This document shows, one piece after another, positions 49,612 to 64,000 of a DNA stretch of 64,000 bases; within the stretch, counting starts at the first letter, position 1; every line of letters begins with the position of its first letter. The notes below the pieces were generated by a model. The model had not been told where the DNA came from and ran no database searches. It worked only from the letters and a program-made list of their open reading frames with translations. Made by a program: the position numbers and the translations under genes. Source of the DNA: Pseudomonadota bacterium (GTDB lineage Bacteria > Pseudomonadota > Gammaproteobacteria > QQUJ01). The stretch spans positions 124,001 through 188,000 of the forward strand of contig QQUJ01000030.1 of assembly GCA_008501635.1 (NCBI GenBank), written 5' to 3'.

Positions 49612-50029
49612 AGCCGAAACAGTGACCGGCTTCCTTTGGCCAGTACGCGTTTACTACGAAGATACCGACAGCGGAGGCGTGGTCTATTACGCGAATTACC
49701 TGAAATTTATGGAACGGGCCCGAACCGAATGGCTGCGTCATCTCGGTTTCGCCCAGGATGAACTTGCGGCCCGTGAAAATGTCATATTCGCGGTGAGAAG
49801 GGCGGAGGTGGATTATCTGCGCCCGGCACGATTCAACGATGCGCTGGAGATTCGATCTACCATCGTCGAGCGGGGGCGTGCCAGTCTTACCTTCGAACAA
49901 CAGATCACCAAACCGGCAAACAAGGGGGAGCTGCTGTGCAGCGGACGTATTCGAGTGGCCTGCATCGACGCGACGAGCTTCCGGCCACGCCCCCTCCCGG
50001 AAATCCTGCGCAACCAACTCACCGAGTAG
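49601..50029 (+). CDS. ybgC: YbgC, Tol-Pal-associated acyl-CoA thioesterase
   Basis: This hot-dog-fold thioesterase is the first gene of the tol-pal cluster. The catalytic Asp is in [20 protein letters not shown], followed by [14 protein letters not shown] and [15 protein letters not shown]. From the ATG at 49601 the product has 142 aa, close to the usual length; an ATG at 49565, deeper in ruvB, is possible but adds unconserved residues. YbgC proteins act on short or long acyl-CoA and have been linked to phospholipid metabolism at the membrane. tolQ follows after 11 bp. Confidence 0.93.
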
Positions 50030-50040
50030 GGAGATGACTC

Positions 50041-50715
50041 GTGTCGGCTGACCTTTCATTGATCCACCTCATCGGCGGCGCGAGCCCTCTCGTGCAACTG
50101 GTGATGGTCGCACTGATACTGGCTTCGCTGATCTCGTGGACCTTCATCTTCCAGAAATGGAGCGCGCTGAAGGGCGCCAAGAACGCGGCCAACGCCTTCG
50201 AAGACCGATTCTGGTCGGGCGGCGATCTCAACCAGCTCTATCGCGAAATCGCCGGGCGCAACGTGACCACCGGCATGGAGAACATCTTCGCCGCCGGCTT
50301 CTCCGAATTCAGCCGTTTGCGCAAACAGACCGGGGGGGAACCGAAGAGTATCGTCGAGGGTGCGCAGCGCTCGATGCGCATCGCCCTGGCGCGTGAAACC
50401 GATCGCCTCGAACACCATCTGTCGTTTCTCGCCACCGTGGGCTCGACCAGTCCTTACGTGGGCCTGCTCGGCACCGTGTGGGGCATCATGAACTCGTTCC
50501 GCGCGCTGGCCAACGTCAAGCAGGCCACCCTGGCGCAGGTGGCACCGGGAATCGCCGAGGCGCTGATCGCCACAGCCATGGGGTTGTTCGCCGCGATTCC
50601 GGCGGTCATCGCCTACAACCGCTACTCCAACGATGTTGAACGTCTGTTGAATCGCTACGACACCTTTGTCGAGGAGTTTTCCACCATTCTGCAACGCCAG
50701 ATGCACGTCTCCTGA
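50041..50715 (+). CDS. tolQ: TolQ, inner-membrane component of the Tol-Pal motor
   Basis: TolQ forms with TolR the proton-driven stator complex that energises TolA. The 224-aa protein has three membrane helices: one near the N-terminus (LVQLVMVALILASLISWTFI) and two in the second half (LSFLATVGSTSPYVGLLGTV, IATAMGLFAAIPAVIAYNRY). The latter holds the conserved proton-path Thr and Pro residues. The start is GTG at 50041, with GGGAG seven bases upstream. It belongs to ybgC-tolQRAB-pal-cpoB. Confidence 0.96.
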   Translation: MSADLSLIHLIGGASPLVQLVMVALILASLISWTFIFQKWSALKGAKNAANAFEDRFWSGGDLNQLYREIAGRNVTTGMENIFAAGFSEFSRLRKQTGGEPKSIVEGAQRSMRIALARETDRLEHHLSFLATVGSTSPYVGLLGTVWGIMNSFRALANVKQATLAQVAPGIAEALIATAMGLFAAIPAVIAYNRYSNDVERLLNRYDTFVEEFSTILQRQMHVS

Positions 50716-50753
50716 AGCCAACCCAGAATCCGGATAATAACGAGCACCCGTCA

Positions 50754-51191
50754 ATGGCCCGAGTCCGCATCCGCCGCCGCCCCATGTCAGACATCAATGT
50801 CGTGCCGTACATCGATGTCATGTTGGTGTTGCTGGTGATCTTCATCATTACCGCCCCCCTGCTCACCCAGGGCGTCAAGGTCGACCTGCCGCAGGCAGCC
50901 TCCGAACCGCTTTCACGGCAGGACATCGAGCCCCTGGTCGTGACCGTGGATAGCGCGGGCAGTTTCTTCCTCAACGTCGGTGATGGCAGCGGCAAAGCCA
51001 TTTCCGCTGACACGTTGCTGGCGCGCGTTGCCGCGGTGCTGCGCCGCAGGCCGGAGACGCCGGTTCTGGTGCGTGGCGACCGCCAGGTGCCCTACGGGCA
51101 GGTGATCCAGGCAATGGCGTTGTTGCAACAGGCCGGAGCACCGAGCATCGGCCTGATGACCGAGCCGCCCGCACAAGGCAGGGCGCGCTAG
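50754..51191 (+). CDS. tolR: TolR, Tol-Pal motor subunit
   Basis: This is a 145-aa ExbD/TolR-family protein. One membrane helix (IDVMLVLLVIFIITAPLL) contains the conserved Asp preceding it in VVPYIDVML, which takes part in proton transfer. The periplasmic domain follows (LVRGDRQVPYGQVIQAMALL, then QQAGAPSIGLMTEPP). It lies 38 bp after tolQ and 4 bp before tolA. Confidence 0.96.
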   Translation: MARVRIRRRPMSDINVVPYIDVMLVLLVIFIITAPLLTQGVKVDLPQAASEPLSRQDIEPLVVTVDSAGSFFLNVGDGSGKAISADTLLARVAAVLRRRPETPVLVRGDRQVPYGQVIQAMALLQQAGAPSIGLMTEPPAQGRAR

Positions 51192-51195
51192 GACC

Positions 51196-52131
51196 ATGAA
51201 GGCATCACCCGGCAACAGGAACCCACTGGCGATTGCGCTCTCGGTGCTGGTGCACATCGTCGTCATAGGGCTTGTTGTCGTCAGTTTTCAGTGGACTCCA
51301 TCTATCTCCACGCCCGAATCGCAGCCCATCATTCAGGCGGTGGCCGTGGATGAGCAGAAAATCGAACAGGAGGCCAGGAAGATCGAAAAAGCCGAGGCCG
51401 AGCGCAAAGCGGCCGAAGATCGGCGCAAGCGCGAGGCCGAACAGGCCGCGAAGAAACTGCGCGATCAGCGTATCACCGAAGAGAAACGACTGGCGGATCT
51501 GCAGAAGAAACGCGTGGAAGAGGAGCAACAACGCAGAGAGATCGAGCGTCAGCGTAAAGTGGCCGAACGGAAACACCAGGAGGCGGAGCGCCAACGCCAG
51601 GAGGCCGAAACCAAGCGCGTCGCTGCGCAGAAAGCGGAACAGGAGCGCCTGGAGAAACTGCGCAAGGAGCGCGAGGTCGAAGAACAGCGTTTGGCTGCAC
51701 TGGAAGCAAAACGTAAAATGGAAGAAGAGAAGCGGCGCAAGGAAGAAGCGGAACGGCAGCGCCGTGAGGAAGAAGAACATATTCGACAAGAGCAGATCGC
51801 CGCCGAAAATGCGCGACTGGAGCAGCAACGCCAACTATTGGCCAATCAGACGATTGCCAAATACACAGACCTGATGCGCCAGAAAGTGTCGCGCAACTGG
51901 TTGCGCCCGGCGGGTTCGCGTAATGATTTGAAGTGCACTGTGCGGGTGCGGTTGATTCCCGGCGGAGATGTGGTAGGCGTGCAGATCATCACCCCCAGCG
52001 GCGATCCGGTATTTGATCGTTCAGTGGAGACCGCGGTGCGACGCGCATCACCGTTGCCGATTCCCAGCGACGCTCTCGTTTTTGACCGTATGCGCGAGAT
52101 CGTTTTTGTGTTTGATCCAGCGAAAGGCTGA
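51196..52131 (+). CDS. tolA: TolA, periplasm-spanning Tol-Pal protein
   Basis: TolA links the TolQR motor to Pal and TolB at the outer membrane. The 311-aa protein has an N-terminal membrane anchor (LAIALSVLVHIVVIGLVVVS). A long Glu/Lys/Arg/Ala-rich helix (about residues 55-210) contains repeated AERKxxE-type heptads. The C-terminal globular domain III (TIAKYTDLMRQKVSRNWLRP, then CTVRVRLIPGGDVVGVQIIT) follows. The helix repeats are Gln- and Arg-rich, but the pattern is normal for the family. Confidence 0.95.
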   Translation: MKASPGNRNPLAIALSVLVHIVVIGLVVVSFQWTPSISTPESQPIIQAVAVDEQKIEQEARKIEKAEAERKAAEDRRKREAEQAAKKLRDQRITEEKRLADLQKKRVEEEQQRREIERQRKVAERKHQEAERQRQEAETKRVAAQKAEQERLEKLRKEREVEEQRLAALEAKRKMEEEKRRKEEAERQRREEEEHIRQEQIAAENARLEQQRQLLANQTIAKYTDLMRQKVSRNWLRPAGSRNDLKCTVRVRLIPGGDVVGVQIITPSGDPVFDRSVETAVRRASPLPIPSDALVFDRMREIVFVFDPAKG

Positions 52132-52134
52132 CCT

Positions 52135-53445
52135 TTGCGAACTATACAACGATTGTTAGCAGTAGTGATGGGGTTGGGTATCTGGTTTGCAGCCCCGGCC
52201 TACGCCACCCTTACCATTGAGATAACCCAAGGCACGGAGGGAGCGCTGCCCATCGCCATTGTCCCCTTCGCCTGGGAAGGTTCCACGCCGCCACCTGAGG
52301 ATGTCAGCGGTGTCATCGCCAGCGACCTGCGCCGCAGCGGCCGCTTCGCCCCACTGCCCGATCAGGACCTCATCTCGCGTCCCCACGAAGGCGCGCAGGT
52401 GCGCTTTGCCGACTGGCGCGCTCTGAATGTGGAAAACCTGTTGGTCGGGCGCGTGAAGGTGATGGGACCCGGCATGTATGTGGTGCAGTTCCAACTGTTC
52501 GACGTCTACAAGGGTGTGCAGATGGCGGGTTACAGCATCCCTGCCAACAAGGAGAACCTGCGCCGCACCGCACACCATGTCGCCGACATTGTCTACGAAA
52601 CCCTGACCGGTCAGCGCGGTGCATTCAACACCCGCATCGCCTATGTCGTGGCGCTGCCACCCGGAACTGACGATGCTGTGCGCTACCAGCTGCAGGTCGC
52701 CGACTCCGACGGTTACGCGCCCAATACGATACTGCGTTCACCGCAACCGCTGATGTCGCCCTCCTGGTCACCGGACGGAACCCGGCTGGCCTATGTCTCC
52801 TTTGAAAACAAAGCACCGGAAATTTTCGTGCAGGATGTCAACTCCGGTCAGCGCCGCTCGGTAAGCCGTTTCAAGGGCATCAACGGTGCGCCCGCCTGGT
52901 CACCCGATGGCAGGCGCCTGGCGGTCACCCTGTCGCAGAAGGGCAATCCCGACATCTACACACTGGACATCGGTTCGGGCCAGGTGCAACAGTTGACCCA
53001 CAGCTTCGCGATCGACACCGAGCCGGCGTGGACACCGGACGGCAAGCACATCGCTTTCACATCCGACCGCGGTGGCAAGCCGCAGATCTACCAGATCGCG
53101 GTCAGCGGCGGGAAGCCGCAGCGCCTGACCTTTGAGGGCGAATACAATGCCCGTCCGGCCTTCTCGCCCGATGGCAAACAACTGGTTTTCGTCAATGGCC
53201 AACAGAACAAGTATCGAGTCGCCATCATGGAGTTGGAAAACAAGATCCTGCGCATCCTGACGGACGGCACACTCGACGAATCTCCCAGCTTCGCGCCCAA
53301 TGGCAGCATGTTGCTCTACGCCACCAGGGATCGCGGACGGGGACTGCTGGCGGCAGTCTCGGTCGATGGACGCGTCCATCAGCGGCTGGTACCTCAGGCG
53401 GGTGACGTGCGCGAACCCGCCTGGTCACCCTTCGAGCAACGTTAA
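52135..53445 (+). CDS. tolB: TolB, periplasmic beta-propeller of Tol-Pal
   Basis: TolB is a periplasmic protein that binds Pal and TolA. It has a signal peptide (MRTIQRLLAVVMGLGIWFAAPAYA), an N-terminal alpha/beta domain (IAIVPFAWEGSTPPPEDVSG), and a six-bladed propeller from about residue 190. Propeller repeats include SPSWSPDGTRLAYVSFENKA, APAWSPDGRRLAVTLSQKGN and RPAFSPDGKQLVFVNGQ. The 436-aa length is normal. The start is TTG at 52135, seven bases after AAAGG and 3 bp past the tolA stop; no ATG gives the complete signal peptide. Confidence 0.95.
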   Translation: MRTIQRLLAVVMGLGIWFAAPAYATLTIEITQGTEGALPIAIVPFAWEGSTPPPEDVSGVIASDLRRSGRFAPLPDQDLISRPHEGAQVRFADWRALNVENLLVGRVKVMGPGMYVVQFQLFDVYKGVQMAGYSIPANKENLRRTAHHVADIVYETLTGQRGAFNTRIAYVVALPPGTDDAVRYQLQVADSDGYAPNTILRSPQPLMSPSWSPDGTRLAYVSFENKAPEIFVQDVNSGQRRSVSRFKGINGAPAWSPDGRRLAVTLSQKGNPDIYTLDIGSGQVQQLTHSFAIDTEPAWTPDGKHIAFTSDRGGKPQIYQIAVSGGKPQRLTFEGEYNARPAFSPDGKQLVFVNGQQNKYRVAIMELENKILRILTDGTLDESPSFAPNGSMLLYATRDRGRGLLAAVSVDGRVHQRLVPQAGDVREPAWSPFEQR

Positions 53446-53480
53446 CCAGATCGATAACAAGATTACGAAAGGAACCCCCG

Positions 53481-54038
53481 ATGAAACCCCTTATTAAGGC
53501 TTTACCCTACGTGTTGGCCGCCCTGGTTTTGGCGGGCTGCGGAACCACTGGCGGAATCCAGGATGAAGGGCAGCAGCCCATTGTCGATGATCAGAGCACG
53601 CTGGGCGGCGCGACCGGTCAGGACGGCGCAGGCGCCCAAACCAGCGGATTGCAAGGTCCCGGCGGTATCGATATGCAGACGCTCAACGATCCGGCGAGCC
53701 TGCTTTCCAAACGTGTCCTCTACTTTGATTTCGACAGCAGCAAGATCAACGAAGAGGAGCGCGCGATCGTCACCGCCCACGCCGGATTCCTCGCCAACAA
53801 TCCGGCGGCCAGGATGACCCTGGAGGGTCATGCCGACGAACGTGGCACGCGCGAGTACAACATCGGCCTCGGCGAACGGCGCGCTCTGGCGGTCCGCCAA
53901 TTGCTGCTGTTCATGGGCGCACGCGATGACCAGATCCAGACCATCAGCTACGGCGAGGAAAAACCCGCTTCGCTGGGTCACGACGAGAGCTCGTGGCGCC
54001 TGAATCGTCGCGTCGAGATCCTCTACGAGGGCTTGTGA
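53481..54038 (+). CDS. pal: Pal, peptidoglycan-associated lipoprotein
   Basis: Pal is an outer-membrane lipoprotein that holds the outer membrane to peptidoglycan. The 185-aa protein has a lipobox with Cys20 (LVLAGCGTTGG) and a Gln/Gly-rich linker. The OmpA-like domain reads VLYFDFDSSKINEEERAIVT, MTLEGHADERGTREYNIGLG, and ERRALAVRQLLLFMGARDDQ. The Asp and Arg residues that contact diaminopimelate are present. The ribosome-binding site GAAAGGAA is strong. cpoB follows by 2 bp. Confidence 0.96.
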   Translation: MKPLIKALPYVLAALVLAGCGTTGGIQDEGQQPIVDDQSTLGGATGQDGAGAQTSGLQGPGGIDMQTLNDPASLLSKRVLYFDFDSSKINEEERAIVTAHAGFLANNPAARMTLEGHADERGTREYNIGLGERRALAVRQLLLFMGARDDQIQTISYGEEKPASLGHDESSWRLNRRVEILYEGL

Positions 54039-54040
54039 TT

Positions 54041-54916
54041 ATGTCTATGAGATTCCCTTCCCTGCTGGCGATGGGACTCTGCCTGGCCGCAGGGACGGCC
54101 AGCGCGCAGACCAATATCGCTCCGGTCATCGACGCTTCGCGTCCGGCGGCGACCACCACCACTCCACCGCGTGCAGCCGCGCCCGCCGGTGCCACCGCGT
54201 CACCGTTGACTCCCGCCGGGCCGGCGGCGATCCCCCCGCAAAACCAGGCGCTGATCGAGGTGCTCACCCGTCTGCAGCAGTTGCAGGAAGAGGTGCGCGA
54301 GATGCGCGGCGAGATGGAGGTGCAATCCCACGCTATCGAGAACCTGAACCAGCGCCAGCGTGATCTCTATCTGGATGTCGACCGGCGTCTGCGCCGGGTC
54401 GAAACCGGTGGGCAGATCACCGCACCCGCCGTGGCTCCCGGCGCGGCCAGTCCGCCCGTCACCACCGGTGCCCCAGCGCCGACCACCGCGCCGGGGAGCA
54501 GTGCACCTGCCGCGACGGCCACCGATCCAGCCCAGGAGCAGGCTGCGTATCAGCTCGCCTTCAATCTCCTCAAAGAGGGTCGGTACCAGCGCGCGATCGG
54601 GCAGTTTCAGGAGTTTCTCGCGCACTATCCCGGCGGCACGTACGCCGATAACGCACAGTACTGGTTGGGTGAAGCCAATTACGTAACTCGTAACTTCACG
54701 CAGGCGATCGACGAATTCCGCAAGGTGCTTAGCGGTTTCCCGGACAGCCCCAAGGGCGCAGATGCCCTGTTGAAAATCGGATACGCTCAGTACGAACTGC
54801 AGCAGTGGCAGGATGCACGCGCCACCCTCACCGAGATCGGCCAGCGCTATCCGCAGTCCACTGCGGCACGCCTGGCAGAAAACCGTTTGCAGCGCATGAA
54901 AAGCGAAGGGCGTTAA
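54041..54916 (+). CDS. cpoB: CpoB (YbgF), Tol-Pal-associated periplasmic protein
   Basis: CpoB coordinates Tol-Pal action with peptidoglycan synthesis in the periplasm. The 291-aa product starts at the ATG at 54041, with a signal peptide (MSMRFPSLLAMGLCLAAGTASAQ). A coiled-coil trimerisation part follows (about 65-120, LTRLQQLQEEVREMRGEMEV, ENLNQRQRDLYLDVDRRLRR), then an Ala/Pro/Thr-rich linker (about 125-165). TPR-like repeats start at YQLAFNLLKEGRYQRAIGQF and YWLGEANYVTRNFTQAIDEF. The linker is longer than in E. coli. Confidence 0.93.
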   Translation: MSMRFPSLLAMGLCLAAGTASAQTNIAPVIDASRPAATTTTPPRAAAPAGATASPLTPAGPAAIPPQNQALIEVLTRLQQLQEEVREMRGEMEVQSHAIENLNQRQRDLYLDVDRRLRRVETGGQITAPAVAPGAASPPVTTGAPAPTTAPGSSAPAATATDPAQEQAAYQLAFNLLKEGRYQRAIGQFQEFLAHYPGGTYADNAQYWLGEANYVTRNFTQAIDEFRKVLSGFPDSPKGADALLKIGYAQYELQQWQDARATLTEIGQRYPQSTAARLAENRLQRMKSEGR

Positions 54917-55073
54917 GGCCAACACCAGCGGCGTCGGCGGCAGTTCAGCCGCCGGCGCCCATCAACCGATCAGGCAAACGATTGCTCTCGAGTCACGCGC
55001 ATCGCAGCCCGTTCGATACCAGGCGCTTTAGGGTAGAATACCCACCCTGGCTCAGTGACCGCTCCAGCCACCG

Positions 55074-55748
55074 TTGAAACCCGAGGCCCAACCCGCTACG
55101 AACTCCGTGTGCAGCCTGCGCATCACCGAAATCTTTTACTCCCTGCAGGGAGAGGGGTTGAGCGCGGGTGAGCCGACGGTATTCGTGCGCCTGACCGGGT
55201 GTCCCTTGCGCTGCGCCTACTGCGACACCAGTTACGCATTTCAGGGCGGTGAGTGGATGACCCTTGCCGATATACGACAAAGAATTGCGGAGTTCGACTG
55301 CAGGCAGATCTGCGTGACAGGTGGCGAACCTCTGGCTCAGCCCAATTGCCAGGCGCTGCTACGGCAACTTTGCGATGCGGGATACACCGTATCGCTGGAG
55401 ACCAGTGGAGCGCTCGATGTGGGTGCTGTCGATAGCCGGGTCATCAAGGTCATGGATCTGAAAACACCGGGATCCGGAGAAGTTGGGCGCAACCGCCTGC
55501 AGAATCTCGAGTATCTTGCGCCCACTGATCAGCTCAAATTCGTGCTTTGCGATCGAACGGATTACGAGTGGGCCAGACGGATGGTCGAACAGCACGGACT
55601 GGCGCAACGCTGCACTTTGCTTTTCAGCCCCGCCGCGGGCCAACTCGACCCGCGCGCGTTGGCGGAATGGGTACTGGAGGACCACTTGTCAGTACGCCTG
55701 CAGCTGCAGCTGCACAAGCTGATCTGGGGCGACACCCCCGGACACTGA
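55074..55748 (+). CDS. queE: QueE, 7-carboxy-7-deazaguanine synthase
   Basis: This radical SAM enzyme of the queuosine and preQ0 pathway contracts 6-carboxytetrahydropterin to CDG. The iron-sulfur Cys motif is in TGCPLRCAYCDTSYAFQGG. The N-terminal ITEIFYSLQGEGLSAGEPTV, ICVTGGEPLAQPNCQALLRQ and SLETSGALDV are typical. The 224-aa frame starts with TTG at 55074; a GTG at 55107 (MCSLRITEIF) is about as likely, and neither has a clear Shine-Dalgarno sequence. queC follows after 21 bp. The 157 bp before it hold a GC-rich hairpin (about 54929-54960) and a possible promoter. Confidence 0.93.
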   Translation: MKPEAQPATNSVCSLRITEIFYSLQGEGLSAGEPTVFVRLTGCPLRCAYCDTSYAFQGGEWMTLADIRQRIAEFDCRQICVTGGEPLAQPNCQALLRQLCDAGYTVSLETSGALDVGAVDSRVIKVMDLKTPGSGEVGRNRLQNLEYLAPTDQLKFVLCDRTDYEWARRMVEQHGLAQRCTLLFSPAAGQLDPRALAEWVLEDHLSVRLQLQLHKLIWGDTPGH

Positions 55749-55769
55749 CACAGGATAATCGGGAGCACG

Positions 55770-56444
55770 ATGAAAAAAGCGGTGGTATTGCTGTCCGGCG
55801 GACTCGACTCCACGACCACGTTGGCGGTGGCACTGGAACAGGGTTACGACTGCTATGCCTTGAGTTTTGACTACGGACAGCGGCATGCGGCGGAATTGGC
55901 GGCTGCGCGCCGTGTAGCGCAAGCGTTAGGGGTACGCGAACACAAAATATTGCATTTGGGCCTCAATGCCATCGGCGGTTCAGCACTCACCGATACCGGC
56001 ATTGACGTGCCCACCGCACCCAGTGAAGGCATCCCTGTCACCTACGTTCCGGCACGCAATACGGTTTTTCTCGCGCTCGCCCTCGGCTGGGCTGAGGTTC
56101 TCGGCGCACAGGACCTCTTCCTCGGCGTCAACGCGGTTGACTACTCCGGTTACCCTGACTGCCGGCCCGAGTTCATCGATGCCTTTGAACAATTGGCCAA
56201 TCTGGCCACCAAAGCCGGCGTGGAGGGAGCGCGGTTCAAAGTGCACACACCGCTCATCGATCTCACCAAGGCCGAGATCATCAAAACGGGCGCGCGGCTG
56301 GGCGTGGACTACGGATTGACCTTGTCGTGTTATGCCGCCGCCGACGATGAGCTGGCCTGCGGCCGGTGCGACTCCTGTCGTTTACGAGCCGCCGGGTTCG
56401 AGGCCGCGGGCATCAGCGATCCAACACGTTACGCCGAACGCTGA
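55770..56444 (+). CDS. queC: QueC, 7-cyano-7-deazaguanine synthase
   Basis: QueC converts CDG with ammonia and ATP to preQ0 in queuosine biosynthesis. The 224-aa protein begins [20 protein letters not shown], containing the PP-loop [46 protein letters not shown] and [18 protein letters not shown] are characteristic. The zinc site has the C-terminal Cys set of [18 protein letters not shown]. It follows queE, the usual pairing downstream of tol-pal in gammaproteobacteria. Confidence 0.96.
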
Positions 56445-56464
56445 GATCACCAACCCGCCAGGGG

Positions 56465-57703
56465 TCAGACCGCTTCGAGTTTTCGCATCCCCTTGGGTAA
56501 CAGACGCAAATCCACCAGACTCGATACCAGTGCCGACCAGATGTTGGCCTCCTCTTCGTAGACCAGCCGGTAGTACTCGACTTTCATGGTCAACACGCTG
56601 CCAAGGATGATGCCGGCCAGTGCGATCATCGAACCGAGCGCCATCGTCGAGACACCAGTCACCCCCTGGCCGATCGAGCAGCCCATCGACAGCACACCAC
56701 CGATGCCCATCAGTGTCCCTCCGATGACATGGTTGACGAAATCACCCCAGGAGCGGAACCACTCGAAGTGAAAATGTTTGGTTACCACCGAGTAGGCGAA
56801 CGATCCAAACACGACACCCGAAATGACCATCATCCCGAACGATATCAGGTGCCACTGGACGGGGAGTATTTCAAAGGGGTCCAACTGCACCTGCTGGGTA
56901 TACCAGTAACCCCATTCGCCGGTCGGATTGATGAAGGTCAGCGACTGCGGCGCAACGCCGACCGGGGGTTGATCCATGAAATCCGCGAACTCCTTCCACT
57001 CTGCACCGATGCTGCCACCCGTGATGTACCAGCCCACGACCACCAGAATGCCGACGGCGCCACCACCCAGGAAGAAGTCAAAGCGCTCGCGGAAGTGCTC
57101 CGAGCGCAGGATGACGACAAATAGCGCCAATGCAACTGCACCCGCCAGTACCCAGCGCAGTGTGGCAGACGCCTCGATTCCCAGCATCCCGGACAGTAAA
57201 ACGCTTATCTCCTGGCTCTCGATACCGAACCGGGCCAGATCGATACTCAGCGGCTGGATCCAGCTGTGGAAGACGAGGCCGTAGAAATCGGTTTTGGTCA
57301 TGATGTACGCCCAGGTGCCCATGACCGTGAACACCACAATCGATTTAATGTTGCCCCCACCCATGCGAATGGAGGTCATGTTGCCGCAGCCACTGCTCAG
57401 CGTCATGCCGACGCCAAACATGAGGCCGCCCAGAATAAACCGCGGCCACATGAAATTGGAGCTGCGATAGGGAGGCAGCGTGGTACTCATGTCGACCACC
57501 CCGGTCATCTCCATAATCAGGACGCCGGTTATGGCAATGGCGATGGCGAATCCCCAGGCGCCCAGGCGCCCGTAGTGACCGATATTGATCCAATCAGAAA
57601 CCGCGCCCAAGGTGCAAAACCCGGTTTTGCGAACCGCAACACCGAGTACGAAGGCCAGCACCCACGCGCTGGCCAAAACCTGATGGGTAATATTCCACTC
57701 CAC
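56465..57703 (-). CDS. YeeE/YedE family (thiosulfate transporter-like) membrane protein
   Basis: This polytopic inner-membrane protein has 412 aa from the GTG at 57703 (GGGGGAG directly upstream). It contains the two half-repeats of the YeeE/YedE family with the conserved Cys motifs: VRKTGFCTLGAVSDW, GVGMTLSSGCGNMTSIRMGG, and GGVLSMGCSIGQGVTGVSTM. Members such as TsuA import thiosulfate by relaying it along these Cys residues; others move related sulfur compounds. The substrate here is inferred from family only. The gene is convergent with queC and divergent from the Met-rich gene at 58087, with which it shares a 383-bp intergenic region. Confidence 0.88.
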   Translation of the reverse strand: MEWNITHQVLASAWVLAFVLGVAVRKTGFCTLGAVSDWINIGHYGRLGAWGFAIAIAITGVLIMEMTGVVDMSTTLPPYRSSNFMWPRFILGGLMFGVGMTLSSGCGNMTSIRMGGGNIKSIVVFTVMGTWAYIMTKTDFYGLVFHSWIQPLSIDLARFGIESQEISVLLSGMLGIEASATLRWVLAGAVALALFVVILRSEHFRERFDFFLGGGAVGILVVVGWYITGGSIGAEWKEFADFMDQPPVGVAPQSLTFINPTGEWGYWYTQQVQLDPFEILPVQWHLISFGMMVISGVVFGSFAYSVVTKHFHFEWFRSWGDFVNHVIGGTLMGIGGVLSMGCSIGQGVTGVSTMALGSMIALAGIILGSVLTMKVEYYRLVYEEEANIWSALVSSLVDLRLLPKGMRKLEAV

Positions 57704-58086
57704 CGTTCTCCCCCTTCGCAGCAACCCTATAATTGTGTGCCCATTCTACCGGGGCTCCATCCCGGACAGCGCAATAAGGCTTAGAAGTTTTTTATATGAC
57801 ACAAAGCTACATTGATGACACTCACCTCGGTCCCCCACCTGCTGTCGACTCAGAATCAATACTCTATCGGCGCCAGGAGAACAAACCGCTGCAAGGCCCG
57901 CTTGCCCCGGACAGTCGGCACACGGAGAGCCGCGGGGTAACAAAACACCGCCACACGGCTGGATCGCTGTCTATCCCATACTGCCAGGTTGACTATCATC
58001 ATTTCAGTGTATTCTAATATACTGACTGGCTGAGGGGGCTTTAGATCGATTTTCTGTTTACAGCGTCAGCTATCGGGAGAACAGTC
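57704..58086. other. 383-bp intergenic region between YeeE/YedE gene and Met-rich gene
   Basis: No convincing gene is present; a 73-codon plus-strand frame at 57796-58017 lacks a ribosome-binding site and protein character. The right part holds a putative promoter with a palindrome (57989-58024). The left part should hold the promoter of the divergent membrane-protein gene, which I cannot place exactly. Confidence 0.5.
57989..58024 (+). promoter_or_regulatory. Putative promoter and palindromic operator upstream of the Met-rich gene at 58087
   Basis: TTGACT (57989-57994) is a good -35 element. The imperfect 20-bp palindrome CAGTGTATTCTAATATACTG (58005-58024) covers the expected -10 region, so spacing to a hexamer (TATTCT or TAATAT) is ambiguous. 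Its core AGTGTATTCTAATAT differs at two of fifteen positions from AGTATTTTCTAATAT in the RND promoter at 28028-28055. It lies 62 bp before the start codon. Confidence 0.6.
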
Positions 58087-58773
58087 ATGAAAATTCAGCG
58101 TATCACGAAGTCTGTATTTGCCACACTGCTATTAGCGGCGGTGGCCGGTGCGGGGATCTCAGCCGAGCCACCCCCGGGCACCGACGCTCGAACGCAGGCA
58201 ATGGAGCACAAGTTCGAGAAAGCGAAACAATACTACGGGGAATGCCAGGGCGTTGATCAGGGCGACTTTGAAAAGATTCGCCCGCACCTGAAAGCCTTCA
58301 CGGACATGGAGGTGATGGCGGAATACATGTCAGATCCTGCCAAGTTCGCACAGTTGGCGCAGACTATCTACGACCCGCGCACCATCCACGTCATGATGAA
58401 ATGCTCCACCGAACCGGTCATGTGGGATACCTGGATGAGCGGCATGACCGATTTCGACAAAATGATGCGCACCGCCATGCGCTTCATGAATCCCGCGATG
58501 TACATGAACTGGATGATGGCGCCCATGAATCCCAACGTCTGGGGACCGATGATGGGGATGATGGATCCCAACATGATGGCTCGCTGGACGACAGCCATGG
58601 CGAACCCCGCTTTCTATCAGCCATTCTTCGCGCCAATGGACCCCAACTGGTACACACCGCGTATGCAATGGATGATGGATCCGCGCAGCATGCAGCCCAT
58701 GTTCAACATGTTCAATATGCCGAACATGATCCCCGGGCAGCCCACCGCCGTACCGGTGCAGCCTAACCAGTAA
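58087..58773 (+). CDS. Exported Met-rich repeat protein, 228 aa
   Basis: No known family. A signal peptide (MKIQRITKSVFATLLLAAVAGAGISAEP) precedes a conventional-looking helical part (about 35-135) with two Cys, in YYGECQGVDQG and VMMKCSTEP. It also has repeated DPxxFAQLxQ/DPRTIHVMM-like turns. The second half is Met-, Asn-, Pro- and Trp-rich: MNPAMYMNWMMAPMNPNVWG, MMGMMDPNMMARW, MDPNWYTPRMQWMMDPRSM. The units resemble a looser form of the 9-residue repeat in the paralogues at 60077 and 60883. It is monocistronic, with a strong terminator behind and a palindromic operator before it. It is probably a periplasmic or surface protein. Confidence 0.85.
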   Translation: MKIQRITKSVFATLLLAAVAGAGISAEPPPGTDARTQAMEHKFEKAKQYYGECQGVDQGDFEKIRPHLKAFTDMEVMAEYMSDPAKFAQLAQTIYDPRTIHVMMKCSTEPVMWDTWMSGMTDFDKMMRTAMRFMNPAMYMNWMMAPMNPNVWGPMMGMMDPNMMARWTTAMANPAFYQPFFAPMDPNWYTPRMQWMMDPRSMQPMFNMFNMPNMIPGQPTAVPVQPNQ

Positions 58774-58795
58774 ACCACGCCGCGACGTAGGATCC

Positions 58796-58832
58796 GAAGG
58801 GTCGCCACTCCGGGTGGCGGCCCTTCTTTTTA
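58796..58832 (+). terminator. Strong rho-independent terminator after the Met-rich gene
   Basis: The stem GAAGGG-t-CGCCAC (58796-58808) pairs with GTGGCG-g-CCCTTC (58814-58826) around TCCGG and is followed by TTTTTAT. This is the clearest terminator in the window and makes the gene at 58087 a single-gene transcript. Confidence 0.9.
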
Positions 58833-58871
58833 TCCTCAGCAACCGCGACCCGGTAACGACCTCCCCTATCA

Positions 58872-58942
58872 GAATCTATCTCAAAATCCCGCGCCTGCTG
58901 AATTGAACCCCAGGGGTGCGCGGGGGATTTTGAGATCGGTTC
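58872..58942. repeat. Palindromic intergenic element, copy 2
   Basis: A 71-bp imperfect palindrome begins GAATCTATCTCAAAATCCC and ends GGGGATTTTGAGATCGGTTC. Its ends resemble those of the element at 4932-4984 (GAACCTATCTCAACATCCC), although the centres differ, so the two appear to be members of one dispersed family. Confidence 0.65.
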
Positions 58943-59439
58943 CTATCAACAGGTGCATTGTGGCATTTACCCGTATCCACGCGTGCGCCCGCCAGGTCCC
59001 ACACCCTCCACCGCCCGCTCACGCGTCGCGCCGATGTCACTGCGCCCTTCTGTCGATCCACGGCCCGTACTCGGTGTCCATCTGCATCAGCGCCCCGCGG
59101 GCGGGTCAATCCACCGTCACCGAGGATCATGATGCAACGGGCCACAGCGGGATCGCGAGGGCATCAGAAAGGGTTTGGGAACGTCACGACTTTCAGCCCT
59201 GGGCATCAAGACAAGGGCGATTCCAGAACACCGGGGTTGCGGTTTGGGTCGGAATGCAGAGTCAGCTACAAGCGAGTTTCGCTGGTCAGGGTTGAATTGC
59301 GCCCCGGGTCGAATGCACGCACAAGCACCACCCTCGATCAACACAGCGCAACGCTGCCGCGCAAAAGGCGGTCAATACGTCGCGACAATCGTGCGCGACA
59401 CTGCATGCGCCGCAGCTACCTTGAAAGAAAAAGAGGCGG
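58943..59439. other. Gene-free stretch in the Met-rich cluster
   Basis: About 500 bases lie between the palindromic element and the next terminator. Frames of 75 to 248 codons are open on both strands, but they are rich in Arg, His, Pro and Ser, have no ribosome-binding sites and contain no domain that I know. I see no promoter for either neighbour, no repeat and no RNA motif here. Confidence 0.5.
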
Positions 59440-59440
59440 A

Positions 59441-59480
59441 GGAAAAGGAAAACCCCGGACACATGATCTGCATCCGGGGT
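59441..59480 (-). terminator. Terminator of the Spy/CpxP-like gene
   Basis: On the minus strand, ACCCCGGA and TCCGGGGT (59473-59480 and 59452-59459) form a stem around a 13-nt loop, followed by TTTCCTTTTCC. It lies 20 bp after the stop codon of the minus-strand gene at 59501. Confidence 0.7.
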
Positions 59481-59500
59481 GGATTGCCAGGTGGCCGACC

Positions 59501-59986
59501 CTATCTGGGTGCTGCTGGGAAACCGGGCATCTGTCTACGCATGGCCTCCCATTTTTCACGCTGCTCCTTGGTGAAAACAGCGAGTTGTTTGTTGTAGGTG
59601 GCGATCGCGGCTTCAATCAACTGCTGTTGCAGTGCGAACATCTTGCCGTACATCGCACCTATGGCCTGCGGATCCGGGTTGGGCACCATCATCATACCGG
59701 GTAGTTTCTGGGCGACTTCCCCCATGCTCTTCATGGTGCCGAGACTGGCATCGCGCGCGGCGTTTCCGATCTCGGTCAGTTGCTGCAGTTGCTCATTGGT
59801 TAACCCGAGCACGGCCAGCGGATTGACCGCACCCATGGGTTGCATACCCGGCATCGCACCCGGCATTGGCATCATGGGTTGCTGCACGCCCATGGGCGGC
59901 ATGGGATATTGGGCAAAGACCACCCCTTGACCGAGCAACAGCACGGCGACAGTGAACAATCGGAGAAAACGATTGCGATTTAGCAC
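59501..59986 (-). CDS. Exported Spy/CpxP-like protein with Met/Pro-rich N-terminus
   Basis: This is a 161-aa exported protein. The GTG at 59986 has a perfect AAGGAG seven bases upstream; the longer frame is not needed. The signal peptide (FLRLFTVAVLLLGQGVVFA) is followed by a low-complexity segment (YPMPPMGVQQPMMPMPGAMP then GMQPMG). The helical domain contains two LTxxQ-type motifs, GLTNEQLQQLTEIGNAARDA and FTKEQREKWEAMRRQMPGFP, as in the periplasmic chaperones Spy and CpxP. Spy-type proteins respond to envelope stress and bind unfolded proteins; some relatives bind metals. The Met-rich head ties it to the surrounding genes. Confidence 0.82.
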   Translation of the reverse strand: MLNRNRFLRLFTVAVLLLGQGVVFAQYPMPPMGVQQPMMPMPGAMPGMQPMGAVNPLAVLGLTNEQLQQLTEIGNAARDASLGTMKSMGEVAQKLPGMMMVPNPDPQAIGAMYGKMFALQQQLIEAAIATYNKQLAVFTKEQREKWEAMRRQMPGFPAAPR

Positions 59987-60025
59987 GGTGCGCTCCTTCT
60001 CAATGAATGCTTGGGAAACAAACAA

Positions 60026-60054
60026 GCACCGGCCAGAGATACTCTGACCGGTGC
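60026..60054 (-). terminator. Probable terminator of the Met-rich repeat gene at 60077
   Basis: On the minus strand GCACCGG and CCGGTGC (60048-60054 and 60026-60032) pair around 15 nt and are followed by TTGTTTGTTT. An alternative smaller stem GTGCCG-TGTC-CGGCAC (60051-60066) overlaps it. Confidence 0.6.
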
Positions 60055-60076
60055 CGTGTCCGGCACTACAACCGGA

Positions 60077-60709
60077 TTACTTCTTAGCCTGCGGGACCTC
60101 GGCAGGTGCCGCAGGTGCAGCGCCGGCGGCCGGAGCCGTCTGAGGCATCATCTGCGTCCAGGCATTGGGGTCAAACCAGTTGAAGCCGGCAGCACCACCC
60201 GCCGCCGGCTGACCCATCGGCATGGTATAGGCACCGGGGTTCATCCAACTCATGTAGGTGGCGGGATTCATGAAGGCCGCGTAGGCGCCCGGATTCATCC
60301 ACTGCATATAAGCCGCTGGATTCATAAACTGGCTGTAGGCGGCCGGATTCATCATCTGCATATAAGTTGCCGGATTCATGAAAGCGGAGTAGGCGCCCGG
60401 ATTCATCCACGCCATCATGTTGTTGGGATCAGCAAACTGCATCCACCACTGCGGCTGCATGAACTGACCGTAGGTCGCCGGATTCATCATGGCCGGGTAG
60501 GTGGCAGGGTTCATGAACATCGCCCAACCGCCCGGATGCGCCAGATTGAACTGCGGCACGCCACCACCAAATCCCTGCACGGGTGCGGCACCACCGGGTG
60601 CGCCCATACCTCCAAACCAATTCGGCACCTGGGCCTGAGACTGCTGCGGAACAACGGCAAAACCAAGAGCCAATGCCAGTGTTAGTCCTACCAAATAGCG
60701 CTTAAACAT
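60077..60709 (-). CDS. Exported protein of tandem 9-residue NPxxYxxxM repeats (paralogue 1)
   Basis: No known family. The ATG at 60709 follows GGAGG, giving 210 aa. After the signal peptide (FKRYLVGLTLALALGFAVVPQQSQAQ), a Gly/Pro-rich segment leads to QFNLAHPGGWAMFM. Eleven 9-residue units then run from about residue 67 to 165: nine clear ones such as NPATYGQFM, NPAAYMQWM, NPGAYAAFM, plus two degenerate ones (QPQWWMQFA, DPNNMMAWM). Each starts with an NP turn and has an aromatic at position 5 and a Met at 9. The tail has FNWFDPNAWTQMMP and an Ala/Pro-rich end. It is divergent from its paralogue at 60883 across a shared palindrome. Probably periplasmic or surface-located. Confidence 0.88.
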   Translation of the reverse strand: MFKRYLVGLTLALALGFAVVPQQSQAQVPNWFGGMGAPGGAAPVQGFGGGVPQFNLAHPGGWAMFMNPATYPAMMNPATYGQFMQPQWWMQFADPNNMMAWMNPGAYSAFMNPATYMQMMNPAAYSQFMNPAAYMQWMNPGAYAAFMNPATYMSWMNPGAYTMPMGQPAAGGAAGFNWFDPNAWTQMMPQTAPAAGAAPAAPAEVPQAKK

Positions 60710-60751
60710 GACTTCCCTCCCGTTAGTAAAAAATCGGTGATGCTGCAAGTA

Positions 60752-60772
60752 AGTAGTATTTTAGAATATAGT
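60752..60772. promoter_or_regulatory. Putative operator between the two divergent Met-rich paralogues
   Basis: The AT-rich near-palindrome AGTAGTATTTTAGAATATAG (60752-60771) contains, on the minus strand, TATTCTAAAATACT. The site before 58087 has TATTCTAATATACT, 13 of 14 identical. TATAGT at 60767-60772 could serve as a plus-strand -10. Its place between divergent genes suits control of both. Confidence 0.55.
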
Positions 60773-60882
60773 TATATACGTATTTCAGGGTCTGTATCCC
60801 CTTCGGGGTGGAAATGGAAAATAATGTCTACTATTCGGTGATATGCAGGCTGTTTGGTACACCGGTATCGGAGGTCAATACA

Positions 60883-61500
60883 ATGCGTAACCTTTTGTTT
60901 TTTATGTTCTTTGTTGTTTTTTCGGTGAGCGGGACGTTGCAGGCGGCATCCGCGGGGGCAAGTGCGGCAAATCCCGCACAGGCGCCCTTCGATACATCCA
61001 CGGTGATGCCCATGGGCAATCCGTCATTGCAGTTCAACCTCGCCCGTCCAGAAGGTTGGGCAATGTTCATCGACCCCCGCGCCCACGCCTCCGCACATGC
61101 GGCATTGATGCATCCCGCGACCTACGCCCAGTTCATGCAGCCGCAGTGGTGGATGCAGTTTGCTGATCCCAACAACATGATGGCGTGGATGAATCCGGCC
61201 TCTTACACCACCTTTATGAATCCGGCCACCTACATGGGATGGATGAACCCCGCGCCGTACATGCACTTCATGAATCCTGCCATGTACATGCAGTGGATGA
61301 ACCCCGGCGCTTATACCGCCTACATGAACCCGGCCACCTACATGCAGTGGATGAACCCCGCCGCCTATGCTTTGCCCGGGACTCAGGCGGCACCTACCGC
61401 TGTTCCCTTCAACTGGTTTGACCCCACTGCGTGGACCGCAATCAACCCGTCGTACGCGGCACCGGCTGCTCCGGCGACGCCCGACAGGAAAGGTCAGTAA
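60883..61500 (+). CDS. Exported protein of tandem 9-residue NPxxYxxxM repeats (paralogue 2)
   Basis: This is the paralogue of the gene at 60077. The ATG at 60883 has GGAGGT seven bases upstream, giving 205 aa with signal peptide MRNLLFFMFFVVFSVSGTLQ. The pre-repeat QFNLARPEGWAMFIDP matches the sister protein. Then follow about ten 9-residue units (77 to 166): HPATYAQFM, the same two degenerate units QPQWWMQFADPNNMMAWM, NPASYTTFM, NPATYMGWM, NPAPYMHFM, NPAMYMQWM, NPGAYTAYM, NPATYMQWM, NPAAYALPG. The tail is FNWFDPTAWTAINPSY. It contains no Cys in the mature part. Function is unknown; it is likely co-regulated with the sister gene. Confidence 0.88.
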   Translation: MRNLLFFMFFVVFSVSGTLQAASAGASAANPAQAPFDTSTVMPMGNPSLQFNLARPEGWAMFIDPRAHASAHAALMHPATYAQFMQPQWWMQFADPNNMMAWMNPASYTTFMNPATYMGWMNPAPYMHFMNPAMYMQWMNPGAYTAYMNPATYMQWMNPAAYALPGTQAAPTAVPFNWFDPTAWTAINPSYAAPAAPATPDRKGQ

Positions 61501-61545
61501 TAGCGCTGCTCCGACCGTTCGCCTGGAAACAGGTTGCAGAAACCA

Positions 61546-61573
61546 GAAACGCGCCTGAGGCGCGTTTCTTCCT
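61546..61573. terminator. Hairpin terminator between convergent Met-rich genes
   Basis: GAAACGCGCC (61546-61555) and GGCGCGTTTC (61559-61568) pair around TGA and are followed on the plus strand by TTCCT. It lies between the stop codons of the genes at 61500 and 61594 and may serve both directions. Confidence 0.7.
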
Positions 61574-61593
61574 GACGCGGCAAACGTGGGGTG

Positions 61594-62589
61594 TTACTTG
61601 GCAGCAGGTTGGGTCGTTTGACCCGTGCCTGGCATCATCTGCGTCCAGGCTTTGAAGAACTGTTCGTACTGCTTGGGGTCCATCATCTGATTCATCGGCT
61701 GTCCACCCGGGGCAGCCATCCCTGGATTCATAGCGCCCATGGGATTCGTCGAGCCCATACCCGGGCTCATCATACCCATCGGGTTGCTCATGCCACCCAT
61801 CATCGGCGCCATCATCATGGGGTTCATCGGATTCATCATGCCCATGGGATTCGTCGAGCCCATACCCGGGTTCATCATACCCATCGGGTTGGTCATGCCG
61901 CCCATCATCGGTGCCATCATCATGGGGTTCATCATATTCATCGGATTCATCATGCCCATGGGATTCGTCGAGCCCATACCCGGGCTCATCATACCCATCG
62001 GGTTGGTCATGCCGCCCATCATCGGCGCCATCATCATGGGATTCATCATACCCATCATCGGCGCCATCATCATGGGATTCATCATGCCCATCATCGGCGC
62101 CATCATCATGGGATTCATCATGCCCATCATCGGATTCATCATCCAACTCATCGGGTTCATCATGCTGCTGGCAGGATTCATCATCGACATCGGGTTCATG
62201 GCCGTCCCGGGACTCATCATCGACAAGGGATTCATAGCAGTCCCGGGATTCATAGCAGTCCCGGGATTCATCATTCCCGTCCAGGCTGCGGGATTCCCCA
62301 TGGCTTGGTAAGACGAGTCAGCCATATTCAGATAAGCACCGTAGTCTTTCTGATACCGGGCGACGGTCTCCGCCTCGTGACACGCAGCGCAGGTACCAAT
62401 GGCCGGTTGTCCCTGCATCATCTGATTGACGACATTGCTCCAAACCGCGGGATCCATGCTCTTTGTTATGGCGTATGAGGTGGCCGGTGCGGCTGACGCA
62501 GGATCGGTCGCCGCCGCCGTTATGCCCAATCCTGCGTAGGCAGAGGTTACGACCAGCACCATGGATGAGACGGTTTGCTTAACCTTCAT
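61594..62589 (-). CDS. Exported Met-rich monohaem c-type protein with tandem repeats
   Basis: No known family. The 331-aa protein has a signal peptide (MKVKQTVSSMVLVVTSAYAG then LGITAAA). A short N-terminal domain contains one c-haem motif CAACH (Cys67, Cys70, His71) in a context of KSMDPAVWSNVVNQMMQGQP before it and YQKDYGAYLNM after it. From about residue 105 to 300 it is almost only Met, Asn, Pro, Gly, Ala, Ser and Thr: PGTAMNP repeats, three 12-residue MMNPMMMAPMMG units, then longer units around GMTNPMGMM and PGMGSTNPMGMM. The end (DPKQYEQFFKAWTQMMPGTG) echoes the NP units of the neighbours. The haem suggests an electron-transfer or redox-sensing role. Confidence 0.87.
   Translation of the reverse strand: MKVKQTVSSMVLVVTSAYAGLGITAAATDPASAAPATSYAITKSMDPAVWSNVVNQMMQGQPAIGTCAACHEAETVARYQKDYGAYLNMADSSYQAMGNPAAWTGMMNPGTAMNPGTAMNPLSMMSPGTAMNPMSMMNPASSMMNPMSWMMNPMMGMMNPMMMAPMMGMMNPMMMAPMMGMMNPMMMAPMMGGMTNPMGMMSPGMGSTNPMGMMNPMNMMNPMMMAPMMGGMTNPMGMMNPGMGSTNPMGMMNPMNPMMMAPMMGGMSNPMGMMSPGMGSTNPMGAMNPGMAAPGGQPMNQMMDPKQYEQFFKAWTQMMPGTGQTTQPAAK
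61741..62140. repeat. In-frame DNA tandem repeats within the Met-rich haem protein gene
   Basis: GGGATTCGTCGAGCCCATAC recurs at 61741, 61846 and 61960, defining long units with periods of 105 and 114 bp. From about 62017 to 62130 a 36-bp unit (CATCATCGGCGCCATCATCA then TGGGATTCATCATGCC) occurs three times almost unchanged. All periods are multiples of three, so copy-number changes would keep the reading frame. Confidence 0.85.
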
Positions 62590-62667
62590 AGTTAAATGTC
62601 CTTGACTTCTCGGTTGTCATCTCAGGCAATCGACCCCTGAGCCAAATTGCAGCGCCAGTACGGCGGG

Positions 62668-63666
62668 TCAGAAGTCGCCGGTCGCCGCGCCTTCCATAAT
62701 GTAGCGCATGGCGTTGCGGATGCGCTGCGCGTCGGCCCTCAACTCTTTGTCGAGCTCACTGTTGGGATTCTGCGCATAGTCCAACCAGTTGATGTCCCAG
62801 TCCATCGTCATTACCCAAAGCTTGCCCTCCCCATCTTCAAGCAGGGCGATGCGGCAGGGTATGAAGATGACGAACTCCGGCACGTAGTCGAGTATCTTGC
62901 GTGCGACGACAGCGTCGCAGAACTGAAAGATCTCGACGCGCGGTGTGTTTTCATCACCAGTGATGGCGCGCACGTCTTTCCACAAGGGACTATGGCCTAC
63001 GAGCTTGAAATTCACCTCGTTGGCACGCAGCTTCATGGAATCGACCGCATCGTCGAACGAGACCCCTTCCTCCACCGGAAGTTTGTCGGTCATGATGCTG
63101 ATCATGTCGCGCATGGAGAGCGGGCTCATCAGCATCATGCTCTGGTACATGCTGCGTTTCGCCTCGGTGGAAATGCTCTCTGAAACGGTATTTGGCTTCC
63201 AGTTTCGAAGGGTTTGCGTAGGGAAACCCGGTACTCGGATGGCGGGGATGCGATCCGGAACAGTGCCCTCGCCTTTGGCCAGATCGACCAGGTCCAATTT
63301 CTCTTGCTGCTCAGCTCCAGGCGTTGGCGTCAGCCCGAACATGAACCGCGGATCGGCCGCGCGCATCATCGCATCCATGACCTGGAAACGTGTCGCCTCA
63401 TCCATCGCAGGCCCCATAAAATGGTTACCCATGACGTTCATCCACTGGAACATCATCCCGGCATAGTTGGCATTCGGGTTGTTGGCATATGCCGGAGGTA
63501 ACTGGCCTGCCGAGTTTGCCACCCACTGAAAATCCATCCAAGGTACGGTTGGAGGTACTTGCGGTGCCGGCGCAGCGCCGGAGTTCGCAGCATTCTGCGC
63601 TCCAGCAGGCGTCACCCAGAATGCGGCTGCCAGAACGATTGCGAGGACATTCCTCAACGCCATCAT
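62668..63666 (-). CDS. Exported DUF302-domain protein with Met-rich N-terminal region
   Basis: This is a 332-aa exported protein. The ATG at 63666 has GGGGAG just upstream and gives a signal peptide (MMALRNVLAIVLAAAFWVTP then AGAQ). The next part (about 30-110) is Pro- and Met-rich, with YAGMMFQWMNVMGNHFMGPA and VMDAMMRAADPRFMFGL. The C-terminal half (about 195-300) is a DUF302 domain: VSFDDAVDSMKLRANEVNFK, then PRVEIFQFCDAVVARKILDY and VPEFVIFIPCRIALLEDGEG. DUF302 proteins have no settled function but are frequent in bacteria with sulfur metabolism. It lies 79 bp upstream of the Met-rich haem gene on the same strand, so the two probably form an operon. Confidence 0.85.
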   Translation of the reverse strand: MMALRNVLAIVLAAAFWVTPAGAQNAANSGAAPAPQVPPTVPWMDFQWVANSAGQLPPAYANNPNANYAGMMFQWMNVMGNHFMGPAMDEATRFQVMDAMMRAADPRFMFGLTPTPGAEQQEKLDLVDLAKGEGTVPDRIPAIRVPGFPTQTLRNWKPNTVSESISTEAKRSMYQSMMLMSPLSMRDMISIMTDKLPVEEGVSFDDAVDSMKLRANEVNFKLVGHSPLWKDVRAITGDENTPRVEIFQFCDAVVARKILDYVPEFVIFIPCRIALLEDGEGKLWVMTMDWDINWLDYAQNPNSELDKELRADAQRIRNAMRYIMEGAATGDF

Positions 63667-63715
63667 TGGTCTCCCCATCGTATCAATATAGATCAACCCC
63701 ACATAATCCGGCGGC

Positions 63716-63750
63716 GCTGAAGTCCCCCCGCAACGGACGCGGGTTTCAGC
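63716..63750 (-). terminator. Hairpin after the right-edge gene
   Basis: GCTGAA...CCCGC (63716-63731) pairs with GCGGG-t-TTCAGC (63739-63750) around AACGGAC. It follows the stop codon of the minus-strand gene at 63778 by about 28 bp. No U-tract follows, so termination strength is unclear. Confidence 0.5.
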
Positions 63751-63777
63751 CGCGGGAAAAGATTACCAGCTGTAATT

Positions 63778-64000
63778 CTACTGAGTCGTATCCGACGGCG
63801 CTCCCGACAGGAGCTGCCCGAACCATGAAATCACGGTGAAAGGCGTGCTGCAGGCCACGGTCACCATGTCACTGATCATTTTGGGCATATCCAGGCATCC
63901 GGCGCTCTGGCCATACGGTTGATTCACCGGACAGGTGGATGACTGGCTGGTTTGGCCTGTAGGACACAGGAAAGTCTGACACTGCTGCGGTTCCGATGTC
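63778..64000 (-). CDS. Cys-rich protein, C-terminal 73 residues only
   Basis: The frame is open from the right window edge to a TAG at 63778-63780, so the N-terminus is outside. The visible part has four to five Cys: QCQTFLCPTGQTSQSSTCPV then NQPYGQSAGCLDMPKMISDM and VTVACSTPFTVISWFGQLLS. It has low charge, many Ser, Thr and Gln, and no membrane segment beyond a short hydrophobic end. The Cys spacing suggests disulfides in an exported protein. I recognise no family. It is co-oriented with the DUF302 and Met-rich haem genes and could belong to the same functional cluster. Confidence 0.6.
   Translation of the reverse strand, partial: TSEPQQCQTFLCPTGQTSQSSTCPVNQPYGQSAGCLDMPKMISDMVTVACSTPFTVISWFGQLLSGAPSDTTQ

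Follow-up and report, generated by a model that had tools for sequence, protein, structure and literature searches.

A family of exported proteins built on a nine-residue repeat, possible sulfur scaffolds of sulfur-oxidizing Gammaproteobacteria

Two divergent repeat genes in a cluster of Met-rich secreted proteins

Two divergently transcribed genes for paralogous repeat proteins, members A and B, lie in the analysed window, a 64,000-nucleotide stretch (C30:124001-188000) of a 3.9-Mb, 98%-complete genome that has no relative closer than class among the genomes compared. The features of the locus are listed in Table 1. The start codons are most likely ATG 60709 (-) for A and ATG 60883 (+) for B, each with a GGAGG-type ribosome site ahead of it. 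No consensus sigma-70 site was found in the 173-bp spacer, and a search of positions 50000-64000 against Rfam gave no match. Antisense orfs over both repeat genes (60011-60685 on the + strand and others) were rejected, as the conserved frames are the sense frames.

Table 1. Features of the repeat-gene locus, in window coordinates
Feature	Coordinates	Strand	Remarks
YeeE/YedE-type sulfur-compound permease	56465..57724	-	PF04143 E 2.1e-51; also in homologous clusters
Met-rich secreted partner, 228 aa	58087..58773	+	irregular NP/DP-x-x-[YWM] units in C-terminal half
Spy/CpxP-like (LTXXQ) periplasmic protein	59501..60025	-	PF07813 E 2.4e-8; Met-rich N-terminus
Terminator-like hairpin 3' of member A	60025..60055	-	14-bp stem with 9 G-C, then T-rich tail
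Member A	60077..60709	-	210 aa; signal peptide at about residues 1-26; 12 nine-residue units
Repeat array of member A	60215..60538	-	residues 58-165; one predicted helix per unit
Units QPQWWMQFA DPNNMMAWM of member A	60404..60457	-	identical in B; conserved family-wide
Divergent intergenic region, 173 bp	60710..60882		ribosome sites of A and B; presumed location of their promoters
Member B	60883..61500	+	205 aa; signal peptide; 10 nine-residue units
Repeat array of member B	61111..61380	+	residues 77-166; degenerate final unit NPAAYALPG
Secreted protein with one CxxCH haem-type motif and (NPMMGM)n tail	61594..62589	-	homologues adjoin DUF302 gene elsewhere
Met-rich secreted protein with C-terminal DUF302 domain	62668..63702	-	PF03625 E 3.8e-10

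The units of both proteins open mostly with NP. In member A the xP dipeptides begin at residues 58, 67, 76 and so on to 157, and in member B at residues 77 to 158, with an exact spacing of nine throughout both series. At a lag of nine residues, A has 56 self-identities and B has 47, compared with maxima of 34 and 30 in 2000 composition-preserving shuffles, which rules out that the period-9 repeat is an artefact of chance or composition. The first-pass annotation had placed both genes correctly, and its contiguous, gap-free units were recovered, twelve of them in A where it had counted eleven. The flanks QFNLA[HR]P and FNWFDP, like the two shared units in Table 1, are common to both proteins just as it had claimed. 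Member A has no cysteine and only seven charged residues among its 210. The two proteins are 65% identical over 165 aligned codons with a dN/dS of 0.22, and within the arrays each period of 27 bp, or of 54 bp (two units), is only about 73-76% alike at the DNA level, which indicates that the arrays did not arise by recent slippage.

The repeat unit, its constraint and its predicted structure

In an alignment of 31 family members, the first nine units, from NPATYGQFM onward, are free of gaps in every intact member, one truncated record excepted. Units at matching positions of different proteins are 59% identical, whereas for non-matching units the figure is 38% across proteins and 40% inside a single protein; the units therefore became distinct from one another before the family diversified, and their number was fixed. 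Together with dN/dS values of 0.05-0.32 across the family, the absence of gaps and the position-specific conservation point to an old, fixed fold. Recent DNA slippage as the origin of the arrays was rejected on these grounds as well: unit identity predates the family and dN/dS is low.

The unit is marked most strongly by Pro-2 (97% of units, at a period of nine) and Tyr-5 (81%); an aromatic residue or Met (F, W, M or Y) occupies position 8 in 85% of units. Methionine, which had been taken as a defining residue, is found at position 9 in 74% of units, where L, A, I and F replace it, and at position 6 in 45%, so that it is better regarded as exchangeable. The units QPQ[WF][WY]MQF and PNNMMAWM were rightly reported as identical in A and B, but the label degenerate does not suit them, since they are among the most conserved units of the family. 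The sequences are hydrophobic and repetitive, with 3-11% charged residues; cysteine is absent from 25 of the 31 members, and every intact member has a clear hydrophobic signal sequence, as judged by eye. One clade (L027, L028, L030, L031, L032) has, in place of the FNWFDP tail, a short tail with two conserved cysteines (e.g. TCDPDNPNQTPSWFGSTC).

Methionine makes up as much as 15% of some members, and several Met-rich secreted proteins are clustered at the locus. Such density could suit a sacrificial antioxidant or reactive-sulfur buffer, in which periplasmic methionine would take up the oxidation and then be regenerated, so that Sox and Dsr partners are protected. A buffer, however, has no need of a fixed ungapped array, of unit-specific identity or of invariant Pro and Tyr, and two Met-poor members (L026 and L023, 5-6% Met) retain the same array; we consider this explanation quite improbable.

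When the mature window protein was modelled by AlphaFold with 31 sequences, most units formed a helix of 7-8 residues, with pLDDT of 70-83 over most of the array and a pTM of 0.40. The model of the divergent, Met-poor member L026, which differs from the window protein in more than half of its residues, has a matching series of helices (array pLDDT about 80-92, pTM 0.55), and the series is interrupted at the same unit in both models (NPGAYSAFM/NPASYTTFI). One short helix per nine-residue unit is thus a consistent prediction. In a two-turn helix, Tyr-5, residue 8 and Met-9 would lie on one side and form an aromatic/Met face. That two such divergent proteins are predicted to fold alike supports the original proposal of an ordered short-helix repeat rather than disorder. 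Of its two forms, a regular solenoid or a repeated short-helix surface, the helix per unit is borne out by prediction, whereas the pTM values and the break in the series do not establish a solenoid. Foldseek searches with both models against the PDB, and with the L026 model against viral models, found nothing significant. TPR and other alpha-solenoid families are built of helical hairpins of 30-40 residues. The present arrays resemble them in having tandem helical units of fixed period, but the unit is far shorter, a single helix within nine residues, and matches nothing in Pfam or by Foldseek.

Distribution of the family and its links to sulfur oxidation

A profile of the family picked out 28 loci among 84,980 species genomes, and whole-genome searches were made in 369 genomes of the class and 329 genomes from across the phylum. 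Six of the 369, from five families, carry the repeat family, and their distribution is phylogenetically clumped; the phylum-wide sample contained no member apart from that of the window's own genome. In total there are 29 further family loci, all in Gammaproteobacteria and nearly all in MAGs, among them uncultured sediment and symbiont lineages; one named carrier is the Olavius algarvensis Gamma 3 endosymbiont of a gutless worm (L007). A second tandem copy (L005:11105-11731), followed by a Spy-like Met/Gln-rich protein, indicates that the repeat gene has been duplicated in more than one lineage, and genome G325 has four places that match the family.

The family had no match in Pfam, in NCBIfam or, by profile search, among PDB sequences. 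A Pfam match to JmjN (E 3.8e-5, below the cut-off) covers only 15 residues and was dismissed as chance. Among the titles and abstracts listed for Met-rich repeats in connection with sulfur oxidation, none described the family. The repeat was initially proposed to be new, and with these searches and the Foldseek results agreeing, both the repeat and the family, whose reality is held with high confidence, can be regarded as previously uncatalogued.

In the window, the cluster of Met-rich secreted proteins is preceded by queE-queC and runs into soxZ and soxY, the next genes beyond the window edge. The protein encoded at 58087 has no match in Pfam or NCBIfam, and its family co-occurs almost one to one with the repeat family, in 23 of 26 repeat-family genomes. 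In the class sample it is present in 7 of 369 genomes, five of which are among the six with the repeat family (Fisher p 2e-9, indicative only because related genomes are counted as independent and MAG incompleteness hides genes). Its homologue is also a neighbour of the repeat gene in L006, L018 and L022, and a Spy-like gene similar to that at 59501 follows a family member in L005 and L016.

The Met-rich DUF302 gene is present in 20 of the 26 repeat-family genomes, and the fusion that it encodes is conserved in or beside the sox-tusA-dsrE2 islands of several sulfur oxidizers. Pfam assigns no function to DUF302. The adjoining protein encoded at 61594 has homologues next to a DUF302 gene in G213, G043, G372, G381 and G387, and those of G213 and G372 retain the CxxCH head and a C-terminal MDPKQYE motif. 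In the window protein this head holds a single CAACH motif, and the DNA units of the tail are 87-97% alike (periods of 114 bp and 36 bp, the 36-bp units at 97%), which suggests that the tail, unlike the nine-residue arrays, has been expanding recently.

The gene order in G213 is repeat protein, DUF302 protein, CxxCH-Met-repeat protein, YeeE, soxB. The DUF302 and CxxCH genes of G372 stand next to soxX, soxY, soxZ, soxA, tusA, dsrE2, a FadL-type porin gene and yeeE; dsrA, soxB and the repeat gene are on the same contig, the repeat gene about 41 kb from soxB. In the Olavius Gamma 3 symbiont about 21 kb separate the repeat gene from soxB on a 1.9-Mb scaffold, and the distance is also about 21 kb in G383. 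In G043 and G387 the DUF302-CxxCH pair comes after queE, queC and a dsrE2 gene (DsrE2 was confirmed for G043). Linkage is not general: in the closed genome G043 a long distance separates the repeat member from sox, dsr and the DUF302 cluster, and the neighbours of several repeat-family clades have no link to sulfur.

Genes for an RND permease, a membrane-fusion protein and an OEP-type outer-membrane protein lie near many family members, and in L007-L021 and L043 a permease/membrane-fusion pair is found close to the repeat gene. The window itself has an RND permease and membrane-fusion pair at 23692-27986 (-), about 33 kb from the repeat genes. Neighbours of the envelope kind (TolC/RND/MotA-ExbB near one clade, FadL-type porin genes near the G213 and G043 loci, recognised by sequence and with a Pfam match for that of G213) would, with the signal peptides, be in keeping with a scaffold of the outer surface or envelope that serves to fasten cells to sulfur outside them or to organise the envelope, with no role in sulfur storage. 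This is unlikely, as no surface anchor, lipobox or secretion-system signal was seen in the member sequences.

The main rival to a sulfur scaffold is binding of copper or oxidants. In its copper form, the proteins would be periplasmic Met-rich binders of Cu(I)/Ag(I), with MxxM pairs (YMQWM) of successive units serving as soft-metal sites that shield Sox haem proteins from copper. MxxM pairs are indeed numerous in members A and B, the Spy/LTXXQ neighbour weakly matches a 'heavy-metal resistance' model, and a multicopper oxidase is encoded 6.5 kb from L013. Nevertheless, Pro and Tyr are the fixed residues while no methionine is conserved in the manner of a ligand, the Met-poor members keep the array, and the RND neighbour scores better as a drug/hydrophobe permease (480 bits) than as the CusA/CzcA metal type (264 bits). 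L013 is the one locus near which a copper gene was recognised, a count made without a systematic copper-gene search. The exchangeability of methionine and the single locus with a recognised copper gene make copper binding the less likely reading, and we place its probability low. SilE is described in one report as periplasmic, Met-rich and intrinsically disordered (PMC5008109). The repeat proteins resemble SilE and other Met-rich Cu/Ag-binding proteins in being rich in methionine and apparently periplasmic, but differ from SilE in their predicted helix per unit, replaceable Met, invariant Pro and Tyr, and setting among sulfur-oxidation genes.

That setting, which the first-pass annotation had missed in its otherwise sound account of the pair as an ordered repeat, extends to the metabolism of the carriers. 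Of the 26 repeat-family genomes, 25 have DsrA above the cut-off and the remaining one has a fragment of it; 23 have SoxB, some of them as fragments, and only three have SoxC. In the class sample dsrA occurs in 117 of 369 genomes, including all six with the repeat family (Fisher p 0.0009, to be read with the same reserve as above). The family is absent from the other 111 dsrA genomes and so is not a general requirement. Given the clumped distribution over five families, and loci that have no sulfur genes nearby, the association might reflect nothing more than common descent of a few marine clades of sulfur oxidizers, the proteins being chaperones or helical binders of lipids or hydrophobes unrelated to sulfur. 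It is hard to reconcile this with the presence of dsrA in every family genome of the class sample, across five different families, or with clusters whose ends reach or approach sox genes in more than a single lineage, and we give it little credence.

A possible role in sulfur storage

A role of some kind in sulfur metabolism is likely for the repeat family. More specifically, and with middling confidence, members A and B may be annotated as periplasmic structural proteins that coat or hold stored zero-valent sulfur. The repeat, the family and its constraint, the signal peptides, the co-occurrence and the linkage are read from sequence and the helices are predicted; from these we infer contact with periplasmic sulfur and a coat or scaffold role. 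Sox without SoxCD may leave sulfane sulfur, according to one account (PMC9959259), and in Allochromatium such sulfur is stored in periplasmic globules and further oxidized by reverse Dsr (PMC10386293). In the proposed mechanism, both genes would yield structural proteins that are exported to the periplasm, lack cysteine and bear almost no charge. The nine-residue units would each be a two-turn helix begun by Asn-Pro, with Tyr-5, Trp/Phe/Met-8 and Met-9 sharing one face, and the array would be a scaffold of fixed length with a continuous aromatic/Met surface. As thiosulfate or sulfide is oxidized by Sox without SoxCD and then by reverse Dsr, zero-valent sulfur would build up in the periplasm. 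The scaffold, along with the remaining Met-rich secreted proteins encoded in the cluster, could coat, nucleate or hold this hydrophobic sulfur, which TusA, DsrE2 and Dsr might later draw on.

The nearest counterparts are SgpA-D of Allochromatium vinosum, which are exported and have regularly spaced prolines, SgpA-C being extremely hydrophobic; sgpD adjoins a gene for an exporter of hydrophobes or amphiphiles, and SgpD has the pattern P-x2-P-x2-P-x4-P and two long helices (PMC10386293). The repeat family shares with SgpA-D an export signal, a hydrophobic repetitive sequence, regular prolines and a nearby hydrophobe-type exporter, and its hosts, like theirs, are Gammaproteobacteria with Sox (mostly without SoxC) and reverse Dsr. 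Unlike SgpD, it has a period of exactly nine and one short predicted helix per unit. It is probably an analogue of SgpA-D, by a comparison of descriptions rather than of sequences.

A bolder version is put forward only tentatively, and is doubtful: that a scaffold of single short helices binds elemental sulfur directly through its aromatic/Met surface and, with the 58087, CxxCH-(NPMMGM)n and DUF302 proteins, constitutes a new system of sulfur storage or delivery in marine Gammaproteobacteria that combine Sox with reverse Dsr.

The packaging of insoluble sulfur by bacteria is poorly understood, as only a few envelope proteins are known from Allochromatium and their structures are unsettled (PMC10386293). 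The strict repeat, the consistent helix prediction and the linkage to Sox and Dsr make the present proteins concrete candidates for binding and localisation work. If their contact with sulfur is real, the order Pro cap, Tyr, large aromatic and Met in the repeat would amount to a rule for the sequence of a protein surface that faces sulfur.
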